A program made the position numbers and the translations under genes. From Spirogloea muscicola (lineage: Eukaryota > Streptophyta > Zygnematophyceae > Spirogloeales > Spirogloeaceae), in the NCBI GenBank assembly GCA_009602725.1, contig WELB01000007.1, forward strand, positions 852,697-888,772: 36,076 nt of DNA, given 5' to 3'. Below, one piece after another: positions 1,600-36,076 of this stretch. Below the pieces are notes generated by a model. It did not search any database. It saw only the letters and a list, made by a program, of their open reading frames with translations, and had not been told where the DNA came from. The stretch's first letter is position 1, and each line of letters opens with the position of its first letter.

Positions 1600-2620
1600 G
1601 TGCCTTCTGGCATTTTGGGACCTATCCTCTGGGCTGCCTCTCACGGCCCTTCCCATGCTTTGCAAGAGCATTTCTTCTTCTTCCTCTCGCGCTTGTTCGC
1701 CCCGCCTCCAAAGAACCCAGGAGCGCTCATCCCCGTCGCTCCCCCCACCTTGTCCATTCTATTTGGCTCTGGCCAGGGGACCCACTTCCAGGAGCCTAGC
1801 TTCTCTGATCTGAGGTTGCTTAGCAGGGGTTACTGAGGATTACGTAGCTGCTTTGTTTCTTGTTGTGCTTGTTCTACTTAGCGCTTCCCCTGGCCCCCTT
1901 CTTGTACTCTGTTCCTTCTTTTTTGGGCTGGCTTTTCCAGCCCCTATCCTCAATGGGCGAGCCCTACCTTTTCAGGTCATACCCCCGTCGGATGAGCTTA
2001 CCTCTTTGACAGCATCGGCCCCTTCCGGAGAAGCTTTCTTCCATGCGCTTCCTGGTCTTGGTCACACTTCATAGGAGGAATACAATCTCTTCGAAAGGGC
2101 CGATGGCTGTCAATTGCCAGCTCAGAAAACAAAAGTGAGGTCCCAGGCTTACGCCCTTGCACATGGGCACCGATGCGCCCTTGCAGCTGCTTTTGGGGAT
2201 TGCATGGCCGACTCATACCCTGCTGCTGAAGAGTGGGACTTCCAGGTCCACTCTACTTTGGGCTGTCCTCTACCAGCCTTGCCCCCTTGGATAAAGCTTA
2301 GTTTAGTGCATTGCTGCCATCGCCACCTGTAGTGTAAGCTTCTTCTTTACAGGTTTTGCGGTTTCTGGCCACTTCGGACCTTGTTCTATCTCAATCTCTT
2401 ATTGAATCTGGCCAATTACAGCCATCGCCCTCGACTAGAAGAGTCTTTCTCTTGACTTATCACAGCCGTCCCTTCCTTCTTTCGGACGACTTTAGGTTTT
2501 CCACTACCCTTCTGCCAGTTTGTCCGATTCGGCTGCTATCTAGGGGTGATTCACAGGGTAGGAGGACGCTCACTCAAATCAGCCCCATCTATAGCCGCGG
2601 CTAGCCCTGCTGTCAAATAA
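1600..2620 (+). repeat. Non-LTR-like repeat, copy D with long modular tail
   Basis: The frame end SDLRLLSRGY and a stop at 1834-1836 is followed by a tail of about 780 nt. The tail starts 'ttacgtagctgctttgtttc', which matches the insertion at 24452-24648. Shared modules include 'cagcccctatcctcaatggg' (1938-1957, and again near 24556) and the 'gaagagtctttct' motif also seen in the 605-640 hairpin. The small open frames here look incidental. Confidence 0.6.
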
Positions 2621-21399: not shown

Positions 21400-22023
21400 A
21401 TTCATTCTCGCTGGACTGGCCAAGTACACCCATCGCCTCTACTGGATGAGTCTTTCTCCCTCCTCCTTGATCCGCACCGCGCGCCTTCTCTCTCAGTGGC
21501 GTGTGAAGTGGGCCAAGCCCCGAAAGCAACATCGCTGCCAACGTGACTGGTGGCTGGAAGAGGCCAGCCCAATCAAATGGGCACACAGATGGAGGAGCTC
21601 TTCGCTGCCGGTGGGCGCGCGAGCCGCGCGCGCCTTGCACAAGTACTAAGGACCACACGGCGGGGTGCAGCACCTTCCTGGAGGCTCGGTGCCTTTGGGT
21701 CTTGTGTACTGCTACCGCATGCGATTGTCTATGTCCCTCCAGCGCTCCCAAGCGCTTGCTTTGCACCGCCGCGCCGGTCGCGCCCTTGCAGCAGCCTCTG
21801 GCTTGCGCAGCGGGGTTGCTCTTCCTCCCCTTAGCTTTGTCTGTCTAGCCTGTGGCTCCGTCATGAACACCTGTATGCATCTGGCTGGCTTTCACAGCCG
21901 CTCTTTTAATATCAGCAGCCGCTTGACCTTAGCTCAGCTGACTTCCTACTGCTGACCCGGGGGTACTAAGAGCGCCCTCTCTGCCCCTAGCCTGTGGCTC
22001 CGTCAAGAACACCTGTATGCATC
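21400..22023 (+). repeat. Non-LTR-like repeat copy G and flanking tail fragments
   Basis: Bases 21700-21840 carry the conserved frame in plus (MRLSMSLQRSQALALHRRAGRALAAASG). A module tail fragment ('ggaagaggccagccca') lies before it at 21556-21571. A 37-bp segment, 21845-21881, is repeated directly at 21988-22024 with one mismatch. Bases 21888-21922 recur at 31697-31731, at the other edge of the retroelement complex. Confidence 0.55.
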
Positions 22024-22079: not shown

Positions 22080-23878
22080 TCTCTGCGTAAGAACTGCTCC
22101 CATGCCCACTTTGCTCCAATCGGTATGTAAAAAGAAATCCCGACTGCAGTCAGGGCGTCTCAATACAGGGGCTTTGGTAAGAGCAAACTTAAGTTGCTGA
22201 AATGACTGACGGCGTGAGTCAGTCCACTCCCACACTGCTTCTTTCTTGAGCAGGTCATTGAGAGGTCTAGCAATAGAGCTGAAATCCTTGATGAATCGCC
22301 TATAATAACTAGCAAGACCAAGAAATGACCGCAACGATCTCAAATCAGTTGGGTCAGGGATAGCAATGACAGCCTGAATCTTGTCATCTTGAGGAGATAA
22401 TCCGTTCTTCGAGATTAGATGTCCAAGATAGGAGGCCTCGCTAAGCCCGAAGTGACATTTCCCGGGATGACACTTGAGTCCGGCCTTTTAAATGGCATCC
22501 AGTACCACTGCAACATGAGTCAAGTGATCATTGAAATCCCGACTGAAAATCAGTATATCGTCTATGTAACAACGAGCAAAAGGAATGCCTCTCAAAACAA
22601 CATCCATAACACGTTGAAACATTATGGGCGCATTCTTCAATCCAAATGGCATTTTCTTCCATTGGAAAAGGATGCTGACACCGTCTCGTACTCCCCAGAA
22701 AGCTGTTTTATGCCTGTCACAAGGCTTAATGTCAACTTGGTTAAAACCTTGCCTAAGATCTAAGACAGAAAAGATCTCACTAGCGCCGAGTCGATTGAAA
22801 ATCTCTTCTGGAGTTGGCATTGGGTAGCGGTCTAAGGGCGTGGCGACATTTGACTCTGTAGTCACCACACATCCGCATCTCTGTGTAGTTGCCATTCTCA
22901 TCCTTCTTCTTCGGTAGGACTGTCGGAGCTGCAAAAGAGCTGAAGGAAGGTTCAATCAAACCTACAGCCAACAACTCTTGACATTTTTTTGCCAATGATT
23001 GCATCCTCATATGGAGACAAAGAATACCTCCTTCTGAAGATAGGCTTGTCATCGTTCAGGTCAATCTGGAAGTGAGCGCCGACATAAGTACCCAGATCAG
23101 ATGATGAAAAAGCAAAACAAATCAATTTACTATTCAAAAGGTAAACAATCTTGTTTCTGTCTACAGTACCCAGATCAGGTCCGCAATGCCATTCGTACTC
23201 TGATAAAGAATGGTATACCTGTCTGGAAAACTGTAATTGCTAAATATCCTCGGACCACTCAGATGCCACAGGCTCGAACGTGCTTAAGAGTTTCAGATCT
23301 AACTCTGACATAGCATGCGCGAGGTTCTGTTTGGCTATCTTTGCATGATATTCAATTTGTAGGGCTCCGGTAATGCTGAGCATCCAGGCAATTGCATTAG
23401 CATCAAATGCCTGTCCCGTCAATCGGATATTCGTTTTGAGAGGGAAATGGGGAAGTGTTATGTCGCCTGGGTTGTAACCTAAACACTTCTCGCGCTCCGT
23501 AGGGTTAAGTTCTTCATAGAGCCCTGTCAATCTCCGTCGAACCATTCCTTGGGCAGCTACTCCATTCGCCTCCCGGAAGTTGATGGATGCTACCGATGCG
23601 ACCAGAGTGGGAAAGGTGACGCGTGGTGCATGTGGGTTCTCATTATTGAAGGCGTGTCGACGGTTGTACCAATAGTCCACAGGCACAACGTCGCGACCTG
23701 GGTCCAAAGCCATATAGGCGTACAGGTTTGGAGGGCGACGTTGTCGGTTGATGCATGCCTGCAGCATCTTCGCCGGGGCAAGGTTGGTCCAATGGACACG
23801 GCGTCGATCTGCAAGTGAACCCAGATATGCAGCGTCCAAAATGGTGTAAGGCCCGAGTACATCACAAATGGTGTTGAA
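22080..23878 (-). pseudogene. Ty3/gypsy-type pol fragment: linker, reverse transcriptase, start of RNase H
   Basis: Reading minus from 23878: an open linker block (about 23839-23240, with NPTEREKCLGYNPGD), then RT N-terminal motifs (FRRRYSLSPYE; AAPTVLPKKKDENGNY; MCGDYR), RT core (FSVLDLRQGFNQVDIKP; MPFGLKNAP; the catalytic YIDD box in ARCYIDDILIFS), then the tether (FLGLASYYRRFIKDFSS) and the RNase H start (FFLHTDWSKVGMGAVLTQ), where it breaks off at about 22080. RT is split over several frames, so it is inactive as written. The order matches protease-RT-RNase H-integrase of Ty3/gypsy elements, but integrase is not next to it in the same orientation. Confidence 0.9.
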
Positions 23879-24451
23879 GTCGAATTGCGCCTTGGGACAT
23901 TATGGTGTGAAACGTACTATAAGCTTGTTAGCCACACGTTATTGGTGGATTGGCTTGACTGACATGGTCAGACATGTATTATCTCAGTGTGAGGAATGCG
24001 ACCGGATACGAAGCATGTTCTCTCTGAAGTCACCTGCCTTACATCCTCTGCCAATACAAGGGTTGGTTTACAGGTGGAGCCTGGATTTAGCTGGTCCACT
24101 ACAGAAGGGCAACGAACGTCCTCACGTACTCATCATGATAGAGCACTTCCAAGTGGGTAGAGGTGGTCGTTATTCCCGGCAAGTCTAGCACATATATTGC
24201 TGAAGCGTTCCTGAATCAGTTGTTATCACGGTTTGGTGCTTGTGCAGAAGTACTGACTGATCGTGGTTCTGAATTCCAGGGTGACTTCCAGCAGTTGCTG
24301 GACCGGACATGTATTGACCATCGCCTGACGTCGCGTGACCATCCACAGGCAGATGGGCTTGCTGAGCGCATGGTGCAAACCGTCAAGAGTGGCTTGGTTA
24401 AGTATGCACTTCGGAAAGGTTTAGAACGATGGGACAAGCGGGTGCCCACCT
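23879..24451 (+). pseudogene. Ty3-type integrase, left copy (frameshifted, C-terminus missing)
   Basis: Integrase inserts retroelement cDNA into DNA. Visible are the end of the zinc-binding HHCC domain (GHYGVKRT ... CEECDR) and the DDE core: WSLDLAGPL (first Asp), LTDRGSEFQ (second Asp) and [11 protein letters not shown] (Glu). A 2-nt deletion near 24150 ('cacttccaag' against 'cacttctccaag' in the right copy) shifts the frame between the first and second Asp. The sequence stops at LERWDKRVP, before the usual C-terminal domain, and runs into a non-LTR-like insertion followed by a DXR-like fragment. The junction with minus-strand linker at about 23879 is abrupt. Confidence 0.9.
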
Positions 24452-24648
24452 CCGCTTCGTAGCTGTTTCGTTTCTTCTTTGTGCTTGTTGTTCTTCGTAC
24501 TTCCCCTGGTCCCTTCTCGTCCTTAGTTCGTTCTTTTTTGGGATGGCTTTTTCCAGCCCCTATCCTCAATGGGCGAGCCCTTTCTATCGGGCTGGCTTCT
24601 CACAGCCCTTGCCCCCGTTGGGAGAGCCACTTCTTCTTTCTATCCGAA
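24452..24648 (+). mobile_element. Non-LTR-like insertion at the integrase/DXR junction (left arm only)
   Basis: The right arm reads straight from 'cccacctccgc' to 'ctacctggcccc' (minus, near 31100), whereas here about 197 bp intervene. The insert matches the tail of copy D ('cgtagctg', 'cagcccctatcctcaatggg'), then 'cacagcccttgcccccgttg'. It lacks the conserved coding end, so it is 5' truncated. No clean target-site duplication is visible; 'tccg' on both sides is weak. Confidence 0.75.
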
Positions 24649-24651
24649 GCT

Positions 24652-24810
24652 ACCTGGCCCCGACTCGACTTTGTCAAGATGGGCAACCTGACGTTCCGGG
24701 AGCCTGACCACGCCAAGTACCCGAGCATGGAGCTGGCGTACGCGGCAGGCCGTGCTGGCGGAACCATGACAGGAGTGCTCAGCGCTGCCAACGAGCAGGC
24801 GGTGGAACTC
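24652..24810 (+). pseudogene. DXR (1-deoxy-D-xylulose 5-phosphate reductoisomerase) fragment, left copy
   Basis: Fifty-three codons translate to [19 protein letters not shown], then [16 protein letters not shown] and [16 protein letters not shown]. This fits the C-terminal connecting region of plant and bacterial DXR (IspC), the second enzyme of the plastid MEP isoprenoid pathway. The similarity stops sharply at AVEL; the next codons read into a GCC/GCT-rich simple repeat. There is no start, no catalytic NADPH domain and no metal site, so it has no enzyme activity. It sits between integrase and the LTR-like leader in both arms, so it was part of the element before the inverted duplication. 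Confidence 0.8.
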
Positions 24811-24814
24811 TCCC

Positions 24815-24945
24815 TCTGGCTTATCCGCTGTCGCCGCCGCCGCTGCCGCTGCTGTCGCCGTCGCTACTGCTGCTACTGCCGCCGCTGTCGCCGTCGCTGC
24901 TGCTGCTGCCGTCACTGTCGCCGCCATCGCCGCTGTTACAACAAC
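24815..24945 (+). repeat. GCTGTCGCCGTC-type simple repeat, left copy
   Basis: An imperfect array of cgctgtcgccgc/gctactgct units follows the DXR-like piece. A matching array on minus lies at about 30818-30930. In the right copy it stays open and would add a Leu/Pro/Ser tail to the integrase-DXR frame. It may be a microsatellite carried by the element. Confidence 0.7.
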
Positions 24946-24959
24946 GAGCGTAGCGTGCG

Positions 24960-25481
24960 CGTTCAGTGTCACGCCAAGAGGGCGTGGCACAGGTGTCCGC
25001 GTAGAAGCCGCTAGAGAGCCGTACCCCCGAGAAGCTTCCGTCACCGGCGCGTAAGACTGGACACACGCGGTAAGTCACAAAGATTGTGACCTTGTGTGTT
25101 GTTGAGCGACTGACAAGCATAACCTTGCGTTGCTCTGAGGCGTTGTATACATCCAGCATCTTGTTCCTTGCACGAGTGCATATTGCATCTTGTTTGGACC
25201 CCCCGTCTACATCAAGGCTTGGAGCCTGTCCGAAGTAGCTAGGCCTGGGCTTGGCCCCCGTTACCAAGTAGATAGGCTGGGCTAGGCCCCCGTTCTGGCT
25301 CGAGTTACTGCCAAATTGGTTACGAACCGGGTGACTATCAATCAATATCGGACTACACGATCGATCTCACACCTGCATTGAGTATTTGTTGAACTTCTAG
25401 TTGCCGCACAAGCTTTACTGAGCCGAGAAGACTTCTTGCATTCTCTTGTGTGGCAATTGGATTTTCATTTGTATTCAGTGC
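24960..25481 (+). mobile_element. Putative LTR/leader of the Ty3-type element, left copy
   Basis: Non-coding sequence directly upstream of gag. It begins with a near-palindrome (tgtcacgcc-aagag-ggcgtggca at about 24967-24989) and contains two diverged tandem units ending 'ggcccccgtt' (about 25252-25294). The position between integrase of one unit and gag of the next fits an LTR shared by head-to-tail elements. I could not fix the TG...CA ends or a primer-binding site, so the exact LTR limits are unknown. Confidence 0.6.
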
Positions 25482-26816
25482 ATGGACTTAAGGTCCGGCC
25501 GTAAAGTAGCAACTTCGACTGATACTCCGGATATTGCTTCTACAGTAATTGATAGTGTAGCGGAAATATCCGAAGTTGCTGCTGATATCCCGGACATTGT
25601 TTCTGTGGCGGTTGAACCTGTTCCAGAAAAAGCAGAGGTGACACCACAGCCACTTCGCATCATGTCTCAAGGAGATCGTCCACAGTACAGAGGTACGCCT
25701 GGTGGTTCTTCACTAAAAACAGTGGAGGAACACTACGAGGCAGAGATATGTGAGCTGCGCATGCAAAAGTGTCTGATAAGCCGCGAGGATGCTATGCTTT
25801 TACTGAGTCGTTATCTCAGTCATGAATCTAGCGATGTCTATAGACGTTCGCGTGACACTATCTTGCAGATGACCACACCAGTACCTAGTAATGCATCTGA
25901 AGCGGAAAGGCAGCTAGGTCCTCAGCTTCTGACGGATTCCGTACGCGAGATGTTTAATCGTCTTGCTCATCACTTCCCTGAGGACACTGTTATTCACCAG
26001 CAGGCATTGATGAGATTTGCTCGCAAGCCTGACGAGTCTGTGACTGTTTGTTATTACCGGTTTCTAAAAGTGATGGAAAAGTCTCACACACAGATAAGTC
26101 AGAAGGACCTTGCATATCAATTCTTGCGTGTTGTCGCAGGGAAGGGGTTGCGTCCAGGGACTATTGATGATGCGTAGGCAGGTGATCTCAACAAGAAGGA
26201 CTACGACATAGAAGACGTCTTCCGAGTCATGCTTGACAAGGAGACTGACGACTTTAAATTACAATGTGCCGATGAACGCTTTGCAGGTTCTCAAGGCACA
26301 TCTGATATGAAACCGACTGCTTCATCACTGGACAAGGCACGAGGTATGAAGAAGGCTTTTGTAGCCTATCCAGTCGCTACACGTTCGGCAGACGCGTCTG
26401 TGACTAGGACGGTCGTAGAGTGTCATGGATGTGGTAAGCAAGGGCACATCAAGAAAGATTGTACCCAGAGGCATCAGACATCTGGTGCCATATGCTCGTT
26501 TTGTTCCAAATCTGGGCACTTAGAACAGCAGTGTTGGGGGAAATTCCCTGATAAGATGCCTGTAGCTTTGAGAAATAAAATTGCTATGAGGAGGGGGTTG
26601 TCTAGCAGAACCTTGTCTGATAGACCTGACTCCAGATATGAACAGATGGCGCGGCAGATAGCGGAATTGACCAAGCAGCTTGCTTCAGCTCAACAGCATA
26701 GCAAGACTAAAGTCGTTCCTACTGCCATGCTAGAAGCAGATGATTACCCAGAAGATGAGGAATACGATCCTCAGGGAATCTACGTCGATGAGGAAGGAGG
26801 AGATGGGCAACTATGA
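25482..26816 (+). pseudogene. Ty3-type gag, left copy (in-frame stop)
   Basis: Gag forms the particle that packages retroelement RNA. The frame starts at the ATG at 25482 (MDLRSGRKV) and is interrupted by TAG at 26175-26177, then continues in the same frame to 26816. The second part has two CCHC zinc knuckles, CHGCGKQGHIKKDC (about 26421-26462) and CSFCSKSGHLEQQC (about 26493-26534), then a coiled-coil-like YEQMARQIAELTKQLASAQQ and an acidic end. It overlaps the protease frame by 77 nt in a different frame, as in many gag-pol pairs. The right copy carries the same stop. Confidence 0.9.
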
Positions 26817-27542
26817 GGGGTATGCTCATGTCGCCAACCTTGTCCCTCAAGCTGCAGACGTACAGGGTTCTTCATCTCGCAATCCCCTGAGGAGGGGAGA
26901 GATAGAACTAACTCAGCAAGCACCTCGTGGAACGGCCCGATACCCAGCCAATTTCAGAGTCAAGGATACTGGTGATATCGTTGTACCCGTCCTTAGCTCG
27001 ACTCCGAAGGTTGCTACCAGTGCAGATATGCTTGTTAAATCTTCAGTGCCTACTAAAGTATTGCTTACCAGAATGCTTGAGGCACCAGTTCTCAGCTTGA
27101 ATGATATTGGTGTATCTAAGGAGACTTTGCATGACATGGTCCTGACAAACAGAGAAGTTGAAGATGTTGTCGCATCACAGGTGGCACAGCACTCACCTGT
27201 AATGTTCGCAACTTCACCTCTGATTCTGTCAGCTCCTGAGATCAAACCTTGCAGATCTCCGACTGAGCGTACAGAGATCATCGCCGCGGTGGCCATGCTT
27301 GACAACACCCAGGGAGTGGTGAAGTTGGCTACCGATACCTATGTAGCAACCCCTGCCTTGGTGCTACTTGATACAGGTGCACAACCTATCCTTATTAGCC
27401 AACGGTTTGCCAAAAACTCCGTCTGGGGAAGGACGACATCAGTGCTAGTACCTTGAGGATCAGGATGGCAACCGGTGGTGCGGACACTGTCGTGGGTGTC
27501 ACCAAAAAACCACTGTGTATCAAGTTGCATGCTGATGATTCA
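26740..27542 (+). pseudogene. Ty3-type aspartic protease region, left copy (truncated at the palindrome)
   Basis: The frame to 27456 ends in the aspartic protease core LVLLDTGAQPILIS (active-site DTG). After AKN a one-base loss in an A-run shifts the frame; the correct continuation (LRIRMATGGADTVVG) lies in another frame. The sequence breaks at 27542, the inner edge of the inverted repeat. The upstream part of the frame (TRYPANFRVKDTGD onward) is a gag-protease linker with no known motif. Confidence 0.85.
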
Positions 27543-27786
27543 CAACTCTCCGCATGCGAGCATACCTTCCAAACATTTGGTCACCATTACATAACGGCAC
27601 TTGCTGCAATTATAATCGCCGTTATTTAGCGTATCCGGATTGACGCCATTTTGGTCTATACCATGCAGATTCTGCATAGTAGTCAATCCCGAATCCTAAT
27701 GGGATTAGGATCTCAGTTCCCAACAAGACATCATAAGTATCAGCCCTTGTGATGAGACACACCGCAGTGAACGAGGTGCGTGCTTC
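27543..27786. other. Spacer between the inverted-repeat arms
   Basis: 244 bp. The right two thirds continue the minus-strand protease frame (DVLLGTEILIPLGFGIDYY), so this is native element sequence on the right side and the left arm is the one cut off. A 7-bp inverted pair, taacggc...gccgtta, lies near 27593-27626. Confidence 0.8.
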
Positions 27787-28589
27787 TGAATCATCAGCAT
27801 GCAACTTGATACACAGTGGTTTTTTGGTGACACCCACGACAGTGTCCGCACCACCGGTTGCCATCCTGATCCTCAAGGTACTAGCACTGATGTCGTCCTT
27901 CCCCAGACGGAGTTTTTGGCAAACCGTTGGCTAATAAGGATAGGTTGTGCACCTGTATCAAGTAGCACCAAGGCAGGGGTTGCTACATAGGTATCGGTAG
28001 CCAACTTCACCACTCCCTGGGTGTTGTCAAGCATGGCCACCGCGGCGATGATCTCTGTACGCTCAGTCGGAGATCTGCAAGGTTTGATCTCAGGAGCTGA
28101 CAGAATCAGAGGTGAAGTTGCGAACATTACAGGTGAGTGCTGTGCCACCTGTGATGCGACAACATCTTCAACTTCTCTGTTTGTCAGGACCATGTCATGC
28201 AAAGTCTCCTTAGATACACCAATATCATTCAAGCTGAGAACTGGTGCCTCAAGCATTCTGGTAAGCAATACTTTAGTAGGCACTGAAGATTTAACAAGCA
28301 TATCTGCACTGGTAGCAACCTTCGGAGTCGAGCTAAGGACGGGTACAACGATATCACCAGTATCCTTGACTCTGAAATTGGCTGGGTATCGGGCCGTTCC
28401 ACGAGGTGCTTGCTGAGTTAGTTCTATCTCTCCCCTCCTCAGGGGATTGCGAGATGAAGAACCCTGTACGTCTGCAGCTTGAGGGACAAGGTTGGCGACA
28501 TGAGCATACCCCTCATAGTTGCCCATCTCCTCCTTCCTCATCGACGTAGATTCCCTGAGGATCGTATTCCTCATCTTCTGGGTAATCAT
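27622..28589 (-). pseudogene. Ty3-type aspartic protease region, right copy
   Basis: Mirror copy of 26740-27542 that extends further into the protease: DTGA core, the same one-base frameshift, then LRIRMATGG...TYDVLLGTEILIPLGF, the conserved C-terminal flap/ILG-type block, ending at a stop at 27622. It shows what the left arm lost. Confidence 0.85.
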
Positions 28590-30293
28590 CTGCTTCTAGC
28601 ATGGCAGTAGGAACGACTTTAGTCTTGCTATGCTGTTGAGCTGAAGCAAGCTGCTTGGTCAATTCCGCTATCTGCCGCGCCATCTGTTCATATCTGGAGT
28701 CAGGTCTATCAGACAAGGTTCTGCTAGACAACCCCCTCCTCATAGCAATTTTATTTCTCAAAGCTACAGGCATCTTATCAGGGAATTTCCCCCAACACTG
28801 CTGTTCTAAGTGCCCAGATTTGGAACAAAACGAGCATATGGCACCAGATGTCTGATGCCTCTGGGTACAATCTTTCTTGATGTGCCCTTGCTTACCACAT
28901 CCATGACACTCTACGACCGTCCTAGTCACAGACGCGTCTGCCGAACGTGTAGCGACTGGATAGGCTACAAAAGCCTTCTTCATACCTCGTGCCTTGTCCA
29001 GTGATGAAGCAGTCGGTTTCATATCAGATGTGCCTTGAGAACCTGCAAAGCGTTCATCGGCACATTGTAATTTAAAGTCGTCAGTCTCCTTGTCAAGCAT
29101 GACTCGGAAGACGTCTTCTATGTCGTAGTCCTTCTTGTTGAGATCACCTGCCTACGCATCATCAATAGTCCCTGGACGCAACCCCTTCCCTGCGACAACA
29201 CGCAAGAATTGATATGCAAGGTCCTTCTGACTTATCTGTGTGTGAGACTTTTCCATCACTTTTAGAAACCGGTAATAACAAACAGTCACAGACTCGTCAG
29301 GCTTGCGAGCAAATCTCATCAATGCCTGCTGGTGAATAACAGTGTCCTCAGGGAAGTGATGAGCAAGACGATTAAACATCTCGCGTACGGAATCCGTCAG
29401 AAGCTGAGGACCTAGCTGCCTTTCCGCTTCAGATGCATTACTAGGTACTGGTGTGGTCATCTGCAAGATAGTGTCACGCGAACGTCTATAGACATCGCTA
29501 GATTCATGACTGAGATAACGACTCAGTAAAAGCATAGCATCCTCGCGGCTTATCAGACACTTCTGCATGCGCAGCTCACATATCTCTGCCTCGTAGTGTT
29601 CCTCCACTGTTTTTAGTGAAGAACCACCAGGCGTACCTCTGTACTGTGGACGATCTCCTTGAGACATGATGCGAAGTGGCTGTGGTGTCACCTCTGCTTT
29701 TTCTGGAACAGGTTCAACCGCCACAGAAACAATGTCCGGGATATCAGCAGCAACTTCGGATATTTCCGCTACACTATCAATTACTGTAGAAGCAATATCC
29801 GGAGTATCAGTCGAAGTTGCTACTTTACGGCCGGACCTTAAGTCCATGCACTGAATACAAATGAAAATCCAATTGCCACACAAGAGAATGCAAGAAGTCT
29901 TCTCGGCTCAGTAAAGCTTGTGCGGCAACTAGAAGTTCAACAAATACTCAATGCAGGTGTGAGATCGATCGTGTAGTCCGATATTGATTGATAGTCACCC
30001 GGTTCGTAACCAATTTGGCAGTAACTCGAGCCAGAACGGGGGCCTAGCCCAGCCTATCTACTTGGTAACGGGGGCCAAGCCCAGGCCTAGCTACTTCGGA
30101 CAGGCTCCAAGCCTTGATGTAGACGGGGGGTCCAAACAAGATGCAATATGCACTCGTGCAAGGAACAAGATGCTGGATGTATACAACACCTCAGAGCAAC
30201 GCAAGGTTATGCTTGTCAGTCGCTCAACAACACACAGGTCACAATCTTTGTGACTTACCGCGTGTGTCCAGTCTTACGCGCCGGTGACGGAAG
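27787..30293 (-). repeat. Right arm of the 2.5-kb inverted repeat
   Basis: Partner of 25035-27542, 2,507 against 2,508 bp, consistent with the single-base indel noted near 30237. Its outer edge falls exactly where the tandemly duplicated leader begins. Confidence 0.93.
28513..29847 (-). pseudogene. Ty3-type gag, right copy
   Basis: Mirror image of the left gag with identical predicted protein, both CCHC knuckles and the same in-frame TAG (at about 29152-29154 on this side). Sharing a disabling stop shows that both arms derive from one already degenerate copy. Confidence 0.9.
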
Positions 30294-30780
30294 TCTTCTC
30301 GGCTCAGTCTCTCCCTCTTACTGGTCAGTAAAGCTTGTGCAGCAACTAGAAGTTCAACAAATACTCAATGCAGGTGTGAGATCGATTATGTAGTCCGATA
30401 TTGATTGATAGTCACCCGGTCCGTAACCAATTTGGTAGTAACTCGAGCCAGAACGGGGGCCTAGCCCAGCCTTTCTACTTGGTAACGGGGGCCAAGCCCA
30501 GGCTTATCTACTTCGGACAGGCTCCAAGCCTTGATGTAGACGGGGGGTCCAAACAAGATGCAATATGCACTCTTGCAAGGAAACAAGATGCTGGATATAT
30601 GCAACACCTCAGAGCAACGCAAGGTTATGCTTGTCAGTCGCTCAACAACACACAAGGTCACAATCTTTGTGTCTTACCGCGTGTGTCCGGTCTTACGCGC
30701 CGGTGACGGAAGCTTCTCGGGGTACGGCTCTCTAGCGGCTATCACGCGGACACCTGTGCCACGCCCTCTTGGCGTGACAC
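29848..30780 (-). mobile_element. LTR-like leader, right copy, tandemly duplicated
   Basis: Two direct copies of the leader lie in a row, offset by about 417 bp ('agacggggggtcc' at 30121 and again at 30538). The copies differ at several bases, and the second has an extra 'tctctccctcttactggtcag' type insert near 30309-30329. The left arm has only one copy. An LTR-LTR tandem or unequal exchange would explain this. Confidence 0.75.
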
Positions 30781-30936
30781 TGAGCGCGCGCGCTACGCTC
30801 GTTGTTGTAACAGCGGCGATGGCGGCGACAGTGACGGCAGCAGCAGCAGCGACGGCGACAGCGGCGGCAGTAGCAGCAGCAGCGACGGCGACAGCAGCGG
30901 CAGCGGCGGCGGCGACAGCGGCAAAAGCCAGAGGGA

Positions 30937-31095
30937 GAGTTCCACCGCCTGCTCGTTGGCAGCGCTGAGCACTCCTGTCATGGTTCCGCCAGCACGGCCT
31001 GCCGCGTACGCCAGCTCCATGCTCGGGTACTTGGCGTGGTCAGGCTCCCGGAACGTCAGGTTGCCCATCTTGACAAAGTCGAGGCGGGGCCAGGT
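30937..31095 (-). pseudogene. DXR fragment, right copy, in frame with integrase
   Basis: The same 53-codon DXR-like piece as at 24652-24810, 159 bp. Here no insertion intervenes: the integrase frame reads ...[13 protein letters not shown] directly into [12 protein letters not shown]..., through AVEL and into a Leu/Pro/Ser-rich tail, stopping near 30793. The fusion lies where many Ty3-type integrases carry a C-terminal domain. Confidence 0.8.
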
Positions 31096-31696
31096 AGATG
31101 CGGAGGTGGGCACCCGCTTGTCCCATCGTTCTAAACCTTTCCGAAGTGCATACTTAACCAAGCCACTCTTGACGGTTTGCACCATGCGCTCAGCAAGCCC
31201 ATCTGCCTGTGGATGGTCACGCGACGTCAGGCGATGGTCAATACATGTCCGGTCCAGCAACTGCTGGAAGTCACCCTGGAATTCAGAACCACGACCAGTC
31301 AGTACTTCTGCACAAGCACCAAACCGTGATAACACCTGATTCAGGAACGCTTCAGCAATATATGTGCTAGACTTGCCGGGAGTAACGACCACCTCTACCC
31401 ACTTGGAGAAGTGCTCTATCATGATGAGTACGCTATTCAGATTTGCATCTACTGACGAGAGGTTACTGAGAGTTCGCTTACTGCTGTCTCAGTCCTTAGC
31501 ACTCCGACTCCTTCAGACCTTGTCCATTCTTTTGGGCTGGCCTCTCCCAGCCACCAGTTAATCTGGCCGCGCTTGCTCCGAGTACGTAAGGACGTTCGTT
31601 GGCCTTCTGTAGTGGACCAGCTAAATCCAGGCTCCACCTGTGAAACAACCCTTGTATTGGCAGAGGATGTAAGCCAGGTGACTTCAGAGAGAACAT
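31096..31696 (-). pseudogene. Ty3-type integrase, right copy (interrupted, active-site Asp lost)
   Basis: Minus from 31696: MFSLKSPGLHPLPIQG, WSLDLAGPL (first Asp), then an insertion at 31433-31579, then [22 protein letters not shown] and [11 protein letters not shown] (Glu). The second catalytic Asp is Gly here (LTGRG against LTDRG in the left copy). The zinc-binding N-terminus is missing; the sequence starts at a junction with a 35-bp repeat at 31697. It is a dead copy. Confidence 0.9.
31433..31579 (+). mobile_element. Non-LTR-like insertion in integrase with 7-bp target-site duplication
   Basis: 147 bp flanked by GAGTACG at 31426-31432 and 31580-31586. The left-arm integrase has the uninterrupted site ('cctcacgtactcatcatg', near 24120). 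The insert matches 158-303 of copy A almost base for base, starting inside the conserved coding end (truncated 5') and running to 'gcttgctcc'. This gives the repeat family a real insertion boundary. Confidence 0.88.
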
Positions 31697-32112
31697 GCTT
31701 TCACAGCCGCTCTTTCAATATCAGCAGCCGCATTTCTTTTGCCGGAGTCCACGTGCGGACGCCGAAGGCCACGTCGGCAGCCCGCCGTAGGCTTGCCACT
31801 TGGCTTGGCAGCATGATTCTCAGTGACGTGAAGCCGCGCGGTGCGCATGGAACGTTAGAAGAAGTGGCTCTCCCAATGGGGGCAAGGGCTGTGAGAACGT
31901 TAGGGCCAAATCGGTTGCTAATACGCAGTCTCAGTAGGGGGGCGGGTCATCGAACGAGGCGGCCCGCTCGAAGCGGGGCGGTGTCCAGTGGCAGTCAGTG
32001 GTGCCAAGCCCACCGGGCGGTGGTGACGGTGGAGTGGTAGAGGCCTCGACGAGCACGGCGCTTGGGCTGACGTCCGCTGGCAGAAACGGCCCATTCAACG
32101 TAAAGGCGATGA
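31697..32112. repeat. Repeat fragments upstream of the reductase gene
   Basis: Bases 31697-31731 repeat 21888-21922 (one mismatch). Bases 31836-31895 carry tail modules of the non-LTR-like family ('gcggtgcgcatgg', 'aagaagtggctctcccaatg', 'ggcaagggctgtgagaacg'). The remainder, GC-rich from 31930, probably contains the promoter of the downstream reductase. Confidence 0.55.
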
Positions 32113-32292: not shown

Positions 32293-34055
32293 ATGCCGCG
32301 CGCGGTGGTCGTTGAAGCGGCCGCCGACGGTGGCGGCGGCGGCGACCCGATGGACCGCGTCGTGTTGCGCGACAAGGCCAAGCCGACGTGAGGAGGCCCG
32401 TCGCGCCGTCTCCGTCTCGCCTGCCGCGCGAGCCGCCGCGCGGCGCTCGATAAGCTGAGCTGAGGGCGGCGGCGGCGGCGGCGGCGGCGTGCAGGCCCGC
32501 GCCAGGCGAGATCCTGGTGCGCATCACCATCCGGCCGGTGAATCCGTCGGACGTGGCAACGATTCAGCGGCAGGGCCTGGCGGGGCAGCTGCCGCTCGTC
32601 CCCGGCGAGGAGGGCGCCGGCGTCGTCGAGGAGGTGCGCGCGCCTCCTGGCATGCCGGAATGCTTGCAACATCCCGAACAAAAATCAAAATACACCATTT
32701 TGTATTGCTATATGTGTATATATATGTGTGTGTATACATATGTTGATTTTAATATATATGAGTCCGGCCGCTGCTGACAGAGGCAGTCCAGCCGGCCATG
32801 GCGGCCCGCAGGTCGGGCCCGGCGTGAGCAAGTTCAAGCGCGGGCAGCGCGTCGTGGCGCTGGTCTTCTTCCGGCGCGCCGCCCGCTGGGAGGGCACGTG
32901 GCAGGAGTACCTGCTCGTCAAGGCCGTGGACGCCGTGCCCATCCCCGACACCATCTCCGACGAGGCCGCCGCGCAGTTCGTCATCAACCCCTGGACCGTC
33001 TACGGCATGCTCAACGACGCGGCCGTCCCTGAGGGCGAGTACCTCCTCCAGACGGCGGCCGCTTCCGTCATTGGCAGGTGGGAGAGCCTGCAAGCAATGG
33101 GCAGCAGAGCCCACATGACAAAAGGGGTTCTCGCACTCGCAGCAACTCCAGCACCGCAAACCATGACCGCTTGTCCAAAACTCATGGCGCAGTTGATCAC
33201 AGCACGTCGACTCGGCTGAGCAAGTCAGCAGTCTGGCGGTGCATTAAGCGTGGCGCTTGCAGGCAGATGATCCAGCTGGCGAAGCACCGGGGCATTCGGA
33301 CGATCAACCTCGTGCGGCGCGAGGAGCAGAAGGAGCAGCTCCACAGCATTGGCGCAAACGCCGTCATCAATTTTGAGACAGAAGGTTCCGCCGCCGTCAC
33401 TGCCACAAGTGTCTTCGTCAATATGTTCTGCTTTTGCCTGCTTGAGTATAGCTTGAATGACAGCTTGAATTTACAGCTTGAAGAACGTTGTCTAAATGTG
33501 TTGTGAGGCTCGCAGACGTCGTAGCCAGGGTGAAGGAGATTACTCAGGGCCACCTTGCGTACACCGCCGTTGATGCTGTTGGTGGAGAGCTAACCAAGGT
33601 GAGAATTGTCTCCTCTATACGTCTAGTTTGCTGCTTGACAACTGTGCTGCACTTTCTGTGTCTTCCACTGGTCTTAACTTGCAAGTCACACCGATGTGCA
33701 ATTTAGTAATCAAGTCACACAAATGGTCGTCAATTGTATGGGCATGCAGCGTGTTGCAGCAAGCGTGCGCAAGGAGGGCACGGTATTCATCTACGGTGAC
33801 CTTGCGGGCCCGAGCTTCTGCGTGGACGTTGCGGACGTGCTACAGCGCGGCGTGCGCATACTTGGATGGAACCTGGACACCCGTGTGACGCGCGAGGAGG
33901 ACAAGCGCAAGATTGCACGAGAGATGTTTCAGCTGCTCGAGGAGCGGGTCGTTGTCCCGTTCGCAGGCGAGAAGTTTGACCTCGCGGACTTCAGAACCGC
34001 CATCCGCAAGAGTCAGGAGACGGGGCGCTCCGGCAAGGTCTTCCTTGTTGGCTGA
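32293..34055 (+). CDS. Medium-chain reductase, 2-enoyl thioester reductase (ETR)-like
   Basis: Zinc-independent MDR-superfamily NAD(P)H oxidoreductase; relatives reduce enoyl-CoA/ACP in mitochondrial fatty acid synthesis or reduce quinones. Exons 32293-32387, 32495-32633, 32812-33077, 33263-33384, 33516-33598 and 33750-34055 stay in phase: 336 residues. Motifs in order: PAPGEILVRI...PVNPSD; VPGEEGAGVVEEVG; FKRGQRVVAL; a nucleotide-binding stretch QTAAASVIGR then QLAKHRGIRTINLVRR; TVFIYGDLAGPS; GWNLDTRV; KVFLVG end. No zinc ligands are seen. The Tyr usually present after xIQG in ETRs is not visible (VATIQRQGLAG). Intron 4 has a poor donor (GTTCCG), so that boundary is less sure. An in-frame ATG at 32113 would add 60 residues without an obvious transit peptide. 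The gene converges with NF-YB. Confidence 0.85.
32695..32762. repeat. TA/TG-alternating tract in reductase intron 2
   Basis: An alternating pyrimidine-purine stretch (tatgtgtatatatatgtgtg and onward) lies inside the second intron, in otherwise GC-rich surroundings. It is a microsatellite-like sequence; no function is shown. Confidence 0.7.
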
Positions 34056-34831
34056 GACGGAGCTGCCTCTAGATTTTCAATGTATCCAACTCTCTTCTTG
34101 TACCCACAGCCCACTCCGATATAAAGCAGCAGTCAGGTGACTCGACCTCCCTGGCTTGAGTCAACTTAAGTCACTCATCGAAGTGCCAGCTTGGCCATGT
34201 GGACCACTCTCTTTCCTGTATGGTTAGCACCTGCATTTTAGGTCAGGGGCCAATAGCAACTACTCATCCTGAGGAAGGTCCATATGCTCAACACAGTGAA
34301 GGTACTGGCAAAAAGTAGCAGATGCATTGAAGACATCTTACTGCATGCGGCTGGGTGCTGACAACAAGTCACCGAGTATGTATGAATTTAGTGCACTAGC
34401 TGGCAGAGAGGTTGCAGCCAAATTGCAGGTTGCCCGGCTGCTTGGTGCAGCAGTAGTGCGTCGCAGCAGGGTCCCATATATTTCCTTCACTCCTGTCTCT
34501 GTCTGGAACCCCCACTCTCTCCACAGCTCTCTCTGGAATGATCTACAAATTAAAATTCAAGGCAGCAATGTGGAAGCGATTGCGCACACAGTTCCTCTGT
34601 GGCTGTTGCAACTGCAGCTCCAAAAGCCCGAATAAAGCAGCTCATGTGCAAGTCCCAAGAAGCTGGCAACAGGCAATGGCTCCAGTGCCAGGATGCTGTG
34701 CCCACATGGCCCCTCTCTTTGTGTTTGGGCGCCTGCTCATGAGCGGCCATGAATATTGCAGACAGCAACAGCAGCCCTAAGAAGGGGGCCGAGCATTGCC
34801 CATTGCTGACGTGTTGACGGAGGCCCCACCC
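34056..34831. other. Convergent intergenic region, 3' ends of reductase and NF-YB genes
   Basis: Presumed 3' UTRs of both genes. No coding exon, repeat-family module or RNA gene was recognised; the open frames are short and lack motifs. Confidence 0.5.
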
Positions 34832-35949
34832 TTACGACGCACCACTTCCCGGTGGTGTGGCACTCTGGGAGTGCGGCATGGCTTGGTAGCCACCAGATAC
34901 CATCATCTGTGATGGCGCGTACACCATGCCTGGCGGCAGCCCGTACTGTCCATACGGCGAAGCACCATACTGCCCCGCCCCCTAACAGCAGAGACCAATG
35001 CCAGCACCTACTATCAGGAAAGTGAGCACAGCCCATGCACTGTTGCCACAGCGGCATGCGCAACGCTCCAAGTGCGTCGCCACAATCAAACCAAGCAGAC
35101 TTCGAGCTGCAGTCAACGAGCAGCACATGGATGCCGGCAGCGACAACGAGCTGCAAGACAGTTGGCGCTTTGCATGGCTGGCTCTGGACAACAGAGCCAT
35201 CGCGCGTGGTGACACAAGGCGCCGCACCTGGGAGGAGGCAGGGGGCGTGCCCCCTGCGCCAGCACCCGCTGGCCCCCGGCCGTCATCGCCAGCAGCTCGG
35301 GCGCCGGCGTCCGAGCCCTCCCCGCCCTTGGCAAGCTGTGCCTTCTCGCCCTCGGTCTCGCGGTAGCGCTGCAGGTACAGCTTCAGCGGCTCGATGTAGT
35401 CGTCGAATCCCAGCGTGCTCATCGCCCAGATGAGGTCGTCGCCGTTCACCGTCTTGCGCTTCTCCCGGTGGCACTTGTCGCTCGCCTCGCCCGTGATGAA
35501 GCTGCAGTGACAGCCGCAGCAGCACAAGGAAGGGGCAGTAGGGTCAATGGCAGGGCCTATGGGACGGCTTGGATGGGCTGCAGTCCAGCGACTTCGCTGC
35601 ATGCCAGTCAATTGCCCGTCTGCCGCTGCTCCTGACGGCCGTCGCCGGTCCGCCATCCTTGCGCCGAGGCTCCCTGAGCGGCGGCGGCGGCAGTGGCGGC
35701 GGCGGCGGCGGACCTGATGAACTCAGAGACGCACTCCTGGACGGTCTCCTTGGCCTCCTTGGAGATCTTGGCGGTGGGCGGCAGGACGCGCTTCATGACG
35801 CGCCCGACGTTGGCGATGGGCAGCAGTCGGTCCTGCTCGCGCACGCCGCCGCCCTCGCCATGACCGCCGGAGCCGCCGCCGCCGCCGCCGCCCGTGTGCT
35901 CGCCGCCCGAGTCCTCCTCGTGCGCCTCCGTGCCGCCCGCCTCCGCCAT
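34832..35949 (-). CDS. NF-YB: NF-YB (CCAAT-binding factor HAP3 subunit)
   Basis: NF-YB pairs with NF-YC through a histone fold and, with NF-YA, binds CCAAT boxes in promoters. Exons 35714-35949, 35228-35501 and 34832-34981 keep phase and give 219 residues. An acidic, Gly-rich N-terminus is followed by [62 protein letters not shown] and [14 protein letters not shown] (residues about 38-131), then an Ala/Gly linker and a Gln/Pro/Tyr/Met-rich tail ([18 protein letters not shown]). The core is plant-like. The position that is Asp in LEC1-type plant NF-YBs is Lys here (AKISK, residue 64), so it is the non-LEC1 type. The start codon is the last gene sequence before a poly(A) run, so promoter and 5' UTR are not in the window. 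Confidence 0.95.
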
Positions 35950-35953
35950 GGCG

Positions 35954-36076
<123 letters not shown>

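Follow-up and report, generated by a model that had tools for sequence, protein, structure and literature searches.

How a segment of a host enzyme gene comes to be joined to the integrase of a retrotransposon, and whether the fusion has a function, is the question raised by a stretch of the Spirogloea muscicola genome (contig WELB01000007.1, here C7:852697-888772). This stretch of 36,076 nucleotides (nt), called the window below, belongs to an assembly of 153 Mb in 471 contigs. At about 22.0-31.7 kb it holds a scrambled nest of Ty3-type long terminal repeat (LTR) retrotransposon sequence, in which a piece of the gene for 1-deoxy-D-xylulose-5-phosphate (DXP) reductoisomerase (DXR) adjoins integrase in each of two inverted arms. 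We find that the piece was copied from a spliced messenger RNA (mRNA) and favor its acquisition by template switching of a reverse transcriptase (RT). The host is photosynthetic, as PF00504, the chlorophyll a/b-binding family, has 68 matches in its genome; several of these genes seem, by eye, to be paired.

Spliced origin of the DXR piece

The peptide encoded by the piece matches the C-terminal domain of DXP reductoisomerase (PF13288, E=4.6e-16) and solved DXR structures (E down to 2.9e-7). The initial annotation, made from the letters of the window, had recognized a C-terminal DXR piece next to integrase in both arms, which is borne out; the 53 codons that it gave the piece have to be extended to 179 nt, a 59-codon stretch covering positions 16-72 of the 115 in the PF13288 profile, and the left copy is split by an insertion. 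The right-arm frame holds none of the other DXR families and no complete DXR. Match counts in the assembly are nominally lower bounds, though every candidate was scored for the DXR DNA piece (4/4) and for PF13288 (8/8). The DNA piece matches four places, namely the two arms, C67:123673-123808 and C115:60670-60802, of which the last two lie in DXR genes, since PF08436 is found ~1 kb upstream of the match in each. The six PF13288 matches agree with this, one lying in each arm and one in each of two exons per DXR gene. Against each of the two genes, the piece is identical at 135 of 139 nt in the longest aligned block.

Both genes carry a 179-nt GT-AG intron within the stretch that matches the piece (GTGAGC...GTGTAG in C115, GTAAGC...GTGCAG in C67). 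Each arm lacks precisely this intron, with exon abutting exon, and the piece starts within the first of the two exons and stops within the second. With the intron exactly absent and the borders inside exons, the piece was copied from spliced mRNA, not acquired by exon capture or genomic recombination; the capture of a host exon, as first supposed, was right about the DXR origin but not about the form of the source. A host segment free of introns hence lies inside element sequence, as in LTR-element transduction. The piece has no poly(A), being internal to the mRNA and flanked by integrase and LTR, and the DNA-piece and PF13288 searches found no other processed DXR copy in the assembly.

Junctions and layout of the nest

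The arms face each other about a centre at ~27.6 kb, each running integrase, DXR, LTR interior, gag and protease-like. The features, in window coordinates, are:

21640-22023, plus strand: abundant repeat flanking the Ty3 nest on the left
22080-23866, minus strand: RT, part of RNase H and a 219-amino-acid (aa) element domain, inverted relative to the adjacent integrase
23890-24436, plus strand: left-arm integrase (H2C2 zinc finger and catalytic core), ending ...LERWDK
24437-24454, plus strand: left-arm DXR piece, first 18 nt
24455-24642 (edges approximate), no strand: later repeat insertion splitting the left-arm DXR piece, with TCCG on both sides
~24643-24807, plus strand: remainder of the left-arm DXR piece, exon-exon junction between 24677 and 24678
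24808-25431, plus strand: left-arm family LTR interior with a CCG-rich simple repeat, starting mid-LTR at the DXR junction
25432-27545, plus strand: left-arm gag-like and protease-like, inner palindrome arm (zinc knuckle E=0.00097, just short of the Pfam cut-off)
27546-27624, no strand: 79-nt filler at the palindrome centre
27625-29897, minus strand: right-arm gag-protease-like, reaching ~160 nt deeper into the element than the left arm
29898-30302, minus strand: right arm, inner, second partial LTR copy
30316-30939, minus strand: right arm, outer LTR interior, DXR join at 30939/30940
30940-31118, minus strand: right-arm DXR piece, 179 nt, without intron, exon junction between 31070 and 31069
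31119-31696, minus strand: right-arm integrase fragment, broken by a 147-nt repeat (~31432-31578)
31697-31731, plus strand: the same abundant repeat, right edge, with GCTT common to the integrase end

At the integrase junction, where relatives have WDRFLPWLIMGYRMSKQT or a similar sequence, the window has WDK and then RVPTS, which is already DXR because the genes read WPQRVPTSEA; the cut in integrase is thus real but lies after LERWDK, not after LERWDKRVP as originally placed. This junction occurs in 2 of the 22 integrase matches in the genome, both of them arms of the nest, and in 0 of the other 20. With only four DXR-piece places (two arms, two genes), the proposal that it is a family-wide feature fails in this assembly.

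The LTR-side junction lies at CTCT (24808), in the interior of the family LTR; the sequence after the piece had been taken for an LTR-like leader with a simple repeat, and of this the LTR relationship and the repeat stand but the leader does not. Upstream of this point we inspected 17 of the 30 LTR loci fetched, in which the alignment starts near the point, leaving aside the nest itself (3), overlapping duplicates (3) and loci where the point was not cleanly reached (7). The LTR's own sequence continues upstream in 15 of the 17, and inverted LTR sequence lies there in the other 2 (on C26 and C8); the 5′ edge of the LTR is ~267 nt further upstream, judged by where copies start aligning with copy L027. 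Both DXR joins replace element sequence rather than split it, with an apparent microhomology of 4 nt (CTCT) on the LTR side and at most 2 nt (AG) on the integrase side. In relatives, a strong U3 hairpin has its 3′ base at the LTR join point, and four copies gave folds of -27.6, -26.6, -25.4 and -21.5 kcal/mol (z -3.47, -3.45, -3.11 and -1.20).

The right arm has an open stop-to-stop frame of 231 aa (30793-31488) from integrase through DXR, so the open junction first noticed there exists, but its integrase is interrupted by the 147-nt repeat. The left arm differs by 2 nt in length from the right near 24148 and has a stop within its repeat insertion. As the integrase frames of both arms are broken, by independent events, neither encodes an intact fusion and a working fusion protein is unlikely. 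We rejected the in-frame fusion as a sign of function, given that chance alone keeps the frame in a third of joins and that these frames are broken; the targeting module once envisaged at this site likewise finds no support, the piece being a 59-codon enzyme stretch.

The element domains pass the Pfam cut-offs for RVT_1 (E=1.1e-20), RT_RNaseH_2 (1.8e-14) and H2C2 (8.7e-11); the integrase core, rve, is slightly short of its cut-off (E=2.7e-7), and an LDTGA motif presumably marks the protease-like stretch. The Ty3-type order, with RT and RNase H upstream of integrase, is found in a relative on C365, which has LTR, the 219-aa domain, RT-RNase H and integrase in succession on a single strand; the nest has its RT block inverted. 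This relative is not intact, its gag region being without a match and a 590-nt palindromic stretch lying inside it. On C26, LTR parts lie 3.9 kb apart on the same strand and are 92.6% alike, and the LTR pieces of the nest lie in both orientations, not as two direct LTRs. The nest represents a derivative rather than an intact element. The 219-aa domain (23243-23899, minus strand), upstream of RT, has no Pfam match and 129 genome matches, and we rejected this frame beside integrase as a second captured host gene because such a number marks it as element sequence. The filler has no match elsewhere in the assembly and might be another captured scrap. Parts of the ~190-nt left-arm insertion match window 1843-1965 and 31857-31897. 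The family LTRs are repeatedly inverted or palindromic (as at L068 3719-4316 and C8:957865-958950), with breakpoints reused near window 24808 and ~25027; TTCTCGG / CCGAGAA, short motifs inverted to each other, occur at these points.

The Ty3 part is embedded in an abundant repeat with at least 50 matches (40 of 2528 first-look candidates scored); a protein-like stretch of this repeat (21640-22023) resembles sequence beside other element copies. A homologous copy of the site on C11 is empty: its alignment with the window stops at ~21628 and resumes at 31738, the two parts being separated by 6 nt. We saw no target-site duplication at the edges of the nest. The left side of the nest ends ...TGCATCT and the right side restarts GCTTTCACAGCC, where the repeat copy at 21845-21922 has TGCATCTGGCTGGCTTTCACAGCC at the corresponding place. 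Presuming an earlier second, partly duplicated repeat copy at the site, ~5 nt seem, from this alignment, to have been lost, GCTT being common to the integrase end; the nest probably entered by end joining rather than through integrase. C11 is also the counterpart of the right flank (window 33100-35700, 90% identical), and the DXR genes on C67 and C115 are 88-89% alike across two long aligned blocks. Judging by the sequences of these two loci (C7/C11 and C67/C115), the assembly appears to hold two diverged chromosome sets, ~10% apart. Beside the nest (32400-35720) lie what we take, by eye, to be host genes, one frame resembling a quinone or enoyl reductase and a minus-strand frame resembling the histone-fold protein NF-YB, and the window ends in a short-period tandem repeat (35957-36076).

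History and mechanism of the capture

Three changes found in neither gene are common to both arms (positions -10, 122 and 143), so the arms share their ancestry and derive from a single capture before the inverted duplication, which vindicates the order of events first proposed. The three changes are synonymous and so may be older than the capture. The C67 and C115 genes differ at six sites in the piece, which sides with each at three, leaving the choice of donor even; counting the three shared changes of the piece itself, the piece and the two genes are mutually equidistant (6, 6 and 6 differences). Six sites are few, and positions -33 and 143, within a few bases of a junction, are less sure; on so few sites, equidistance suggests a capture near the time of the C67/C115 split or from a third allele.

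The outer arms differ by 1.2-5.0% depending on the segment (integrase 4/333 and 5/121, DXR 3/165, LTR 7/218 and 20/404), and the inner palindrome by 0.1-0.2%, with 2/2114 differences between the gag-protease arms and, by BLAST, 2 mismatches and 2 gaps in the 2517 columns of the whole inner arm; this figure is used in preference to a MAFFT alignment of the inner LTR (7/404) with which it is at odds. The outer arms may already have been separate copies when the palindrome arose; alternatively, gene conversion may have homogenized the inner arms. The capture may predate the nest, given the greater divergence of the outer arms compared with the inner palindrome and the equal distance of the piece from the two genes. 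On the same two grounds, the integrase-DXR chimera could be read as a mobile, non-autonomous lineage of at least two copies before the nest, in which DXR took the place of both the C-terminus of integrase and the LTR start, though we regard this as rather unlikely.

The probable source of these joins, in our view, is template switching by reverse transcriptase between Ty3-type element RNA and spliced DXR mRNA, followed by duplication and joining. The same enzyme would have copied both RNAs, presumably packaged together. Minus-strand synthesis, proceeding from R/U5 towards U3, may have stalled at the U3 hairpin, whose base an enzyme copying towards the RNA 5′ end would meet at the join point. 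It would then have switched at the CTCT match onto the DXR mRNA, copied 179 nt over the exon junction and, if the jumps came in this order, switched back to the element RNA within integrase, whereby the integrase C-terminus and the 5′ part of the LTR would have been replaced. The chimeric complementary DNA (cDNA) would later have been inverted-duplicated and, probably by end joining, incorporated together with other element pieces into the repeat on one chromosome of a homologous pair. Position 24808 was also considered as the start of R (the end of strong-stop DNA), which we did not adopt, as the C26 inversion uses the same point.

Several observations weigh against template switching. The fourth folded copy of the hairpin is weaker (z -1.20), folding covered 4 of the 15 relatives that have upstream sequence, and the window lacks the hairpin, which the join removed. 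With at most 2 nt of microhomology at the integrase side and no unusual structure of the DXR mRNA there (z -0.28), nothing accounts for the second switch. The 24808 breakpoint, reused by the C26 inversion, may be a general breakage point, and in a nest this scrambled DNA-level patching of cDNA pieces is possible for the DXR joins too. A repair patchwork free of template switching, in which a DXR cDNA scrap and several element cDNAs were stitched by microhomology at a DNA break, would account for the inverted, scrambled nest, the 79-nt filler, the missing target-site duplication and the GCTT at the right edge; we nonetheless judge it improbable, as both DXR joins replace element sequence, one at what is a strong RNA hairpin in relatives, and the DXR capture seems older than the nest. 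A processed DXR pseudogene made by a long interspersed nuclear element, then struck by or recombined with a Ty3 element so that a fragment was left, would explain the processed state of the piece, but is very improbable without poly(A), a target-site duplication around the piece or another processed DXR in the assembly.

Recombination of the element with a DXR gene at the DNA level, or exon capture, would suit the 135/139 nt identity with the two genes, and yet is hardly credible with the intron missing, the borders within exons and the DXR genes on other contigs. The initial annotation had foreseen local recombination with a neighbouring DXR gene as the meaning of a junction confined to one locus; the junction is indeed unique to this locus, but no DXR gene neighbours it, and the genes on other contigs have the intron. 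Near-identical inverted arms are difficult to assemble, but an assembly artefact in the palindromic repeat deserves almost no weight when the arms are 1-5% apart outside the inner palindrome, carry different later insertions and have the same DXR joins.

Comparison with known LTR-element captures

LTR elements are known to take up segments of host genes, as in Bs1 of maize and in template-switch chimeras, both described in the reviews PMC13317346 and PMC5408686. Bs1, as outlined there, is like the nest an LTR retroelement with host gene pieces inside its own sequence, but has pieces of three genes, whereas the nest is a single dead locus with one 179-nt piece of one gene, DXR, standing where the C-terminus of integrase and a portion of the LTR would be. 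In LTR-mediated retroposition by template switching (Tan et al. 2016, as summarized in PMC5408686), a host mRNA segment is similarly joined to the element at short similarities; the piece in the nest, in contrast, does not lie between two intact LTRs, has no target-site duplication and sits in a scrambled carrier. The complex Triticeae elements attributed to abnormal template switching (Sabot and Schulman 2007, PMC1950507) resemble the nest in pieces that share an internal LTR, but consist of two elements head to tail with target-site duplications kept, and the abstract and Results describe no host mRNA. A term search of the study of Volvox and Chlamydomonas retrogenes (PMC4972966) finds 'LTR retrotransposon' only in its reference list, and among the papers turned up by literature searches, judged on titles and abstract openings, no title reports DXR captured by a retrotransposon.

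The nest belongs among the known LTR-element captures of host mRNA, without the two LTRs and target-site duplication of an intact carrier. Set beside these systems, it is a host-message capture by an LTR element that can be read at base resolution in a photosynthetic eukaryote, with the donor genes, the absent intron, the two breakpoints and the homologous site without the nest all legible, and it suggests a testable rule, that switching occurs at the base of the U3 hairpin.

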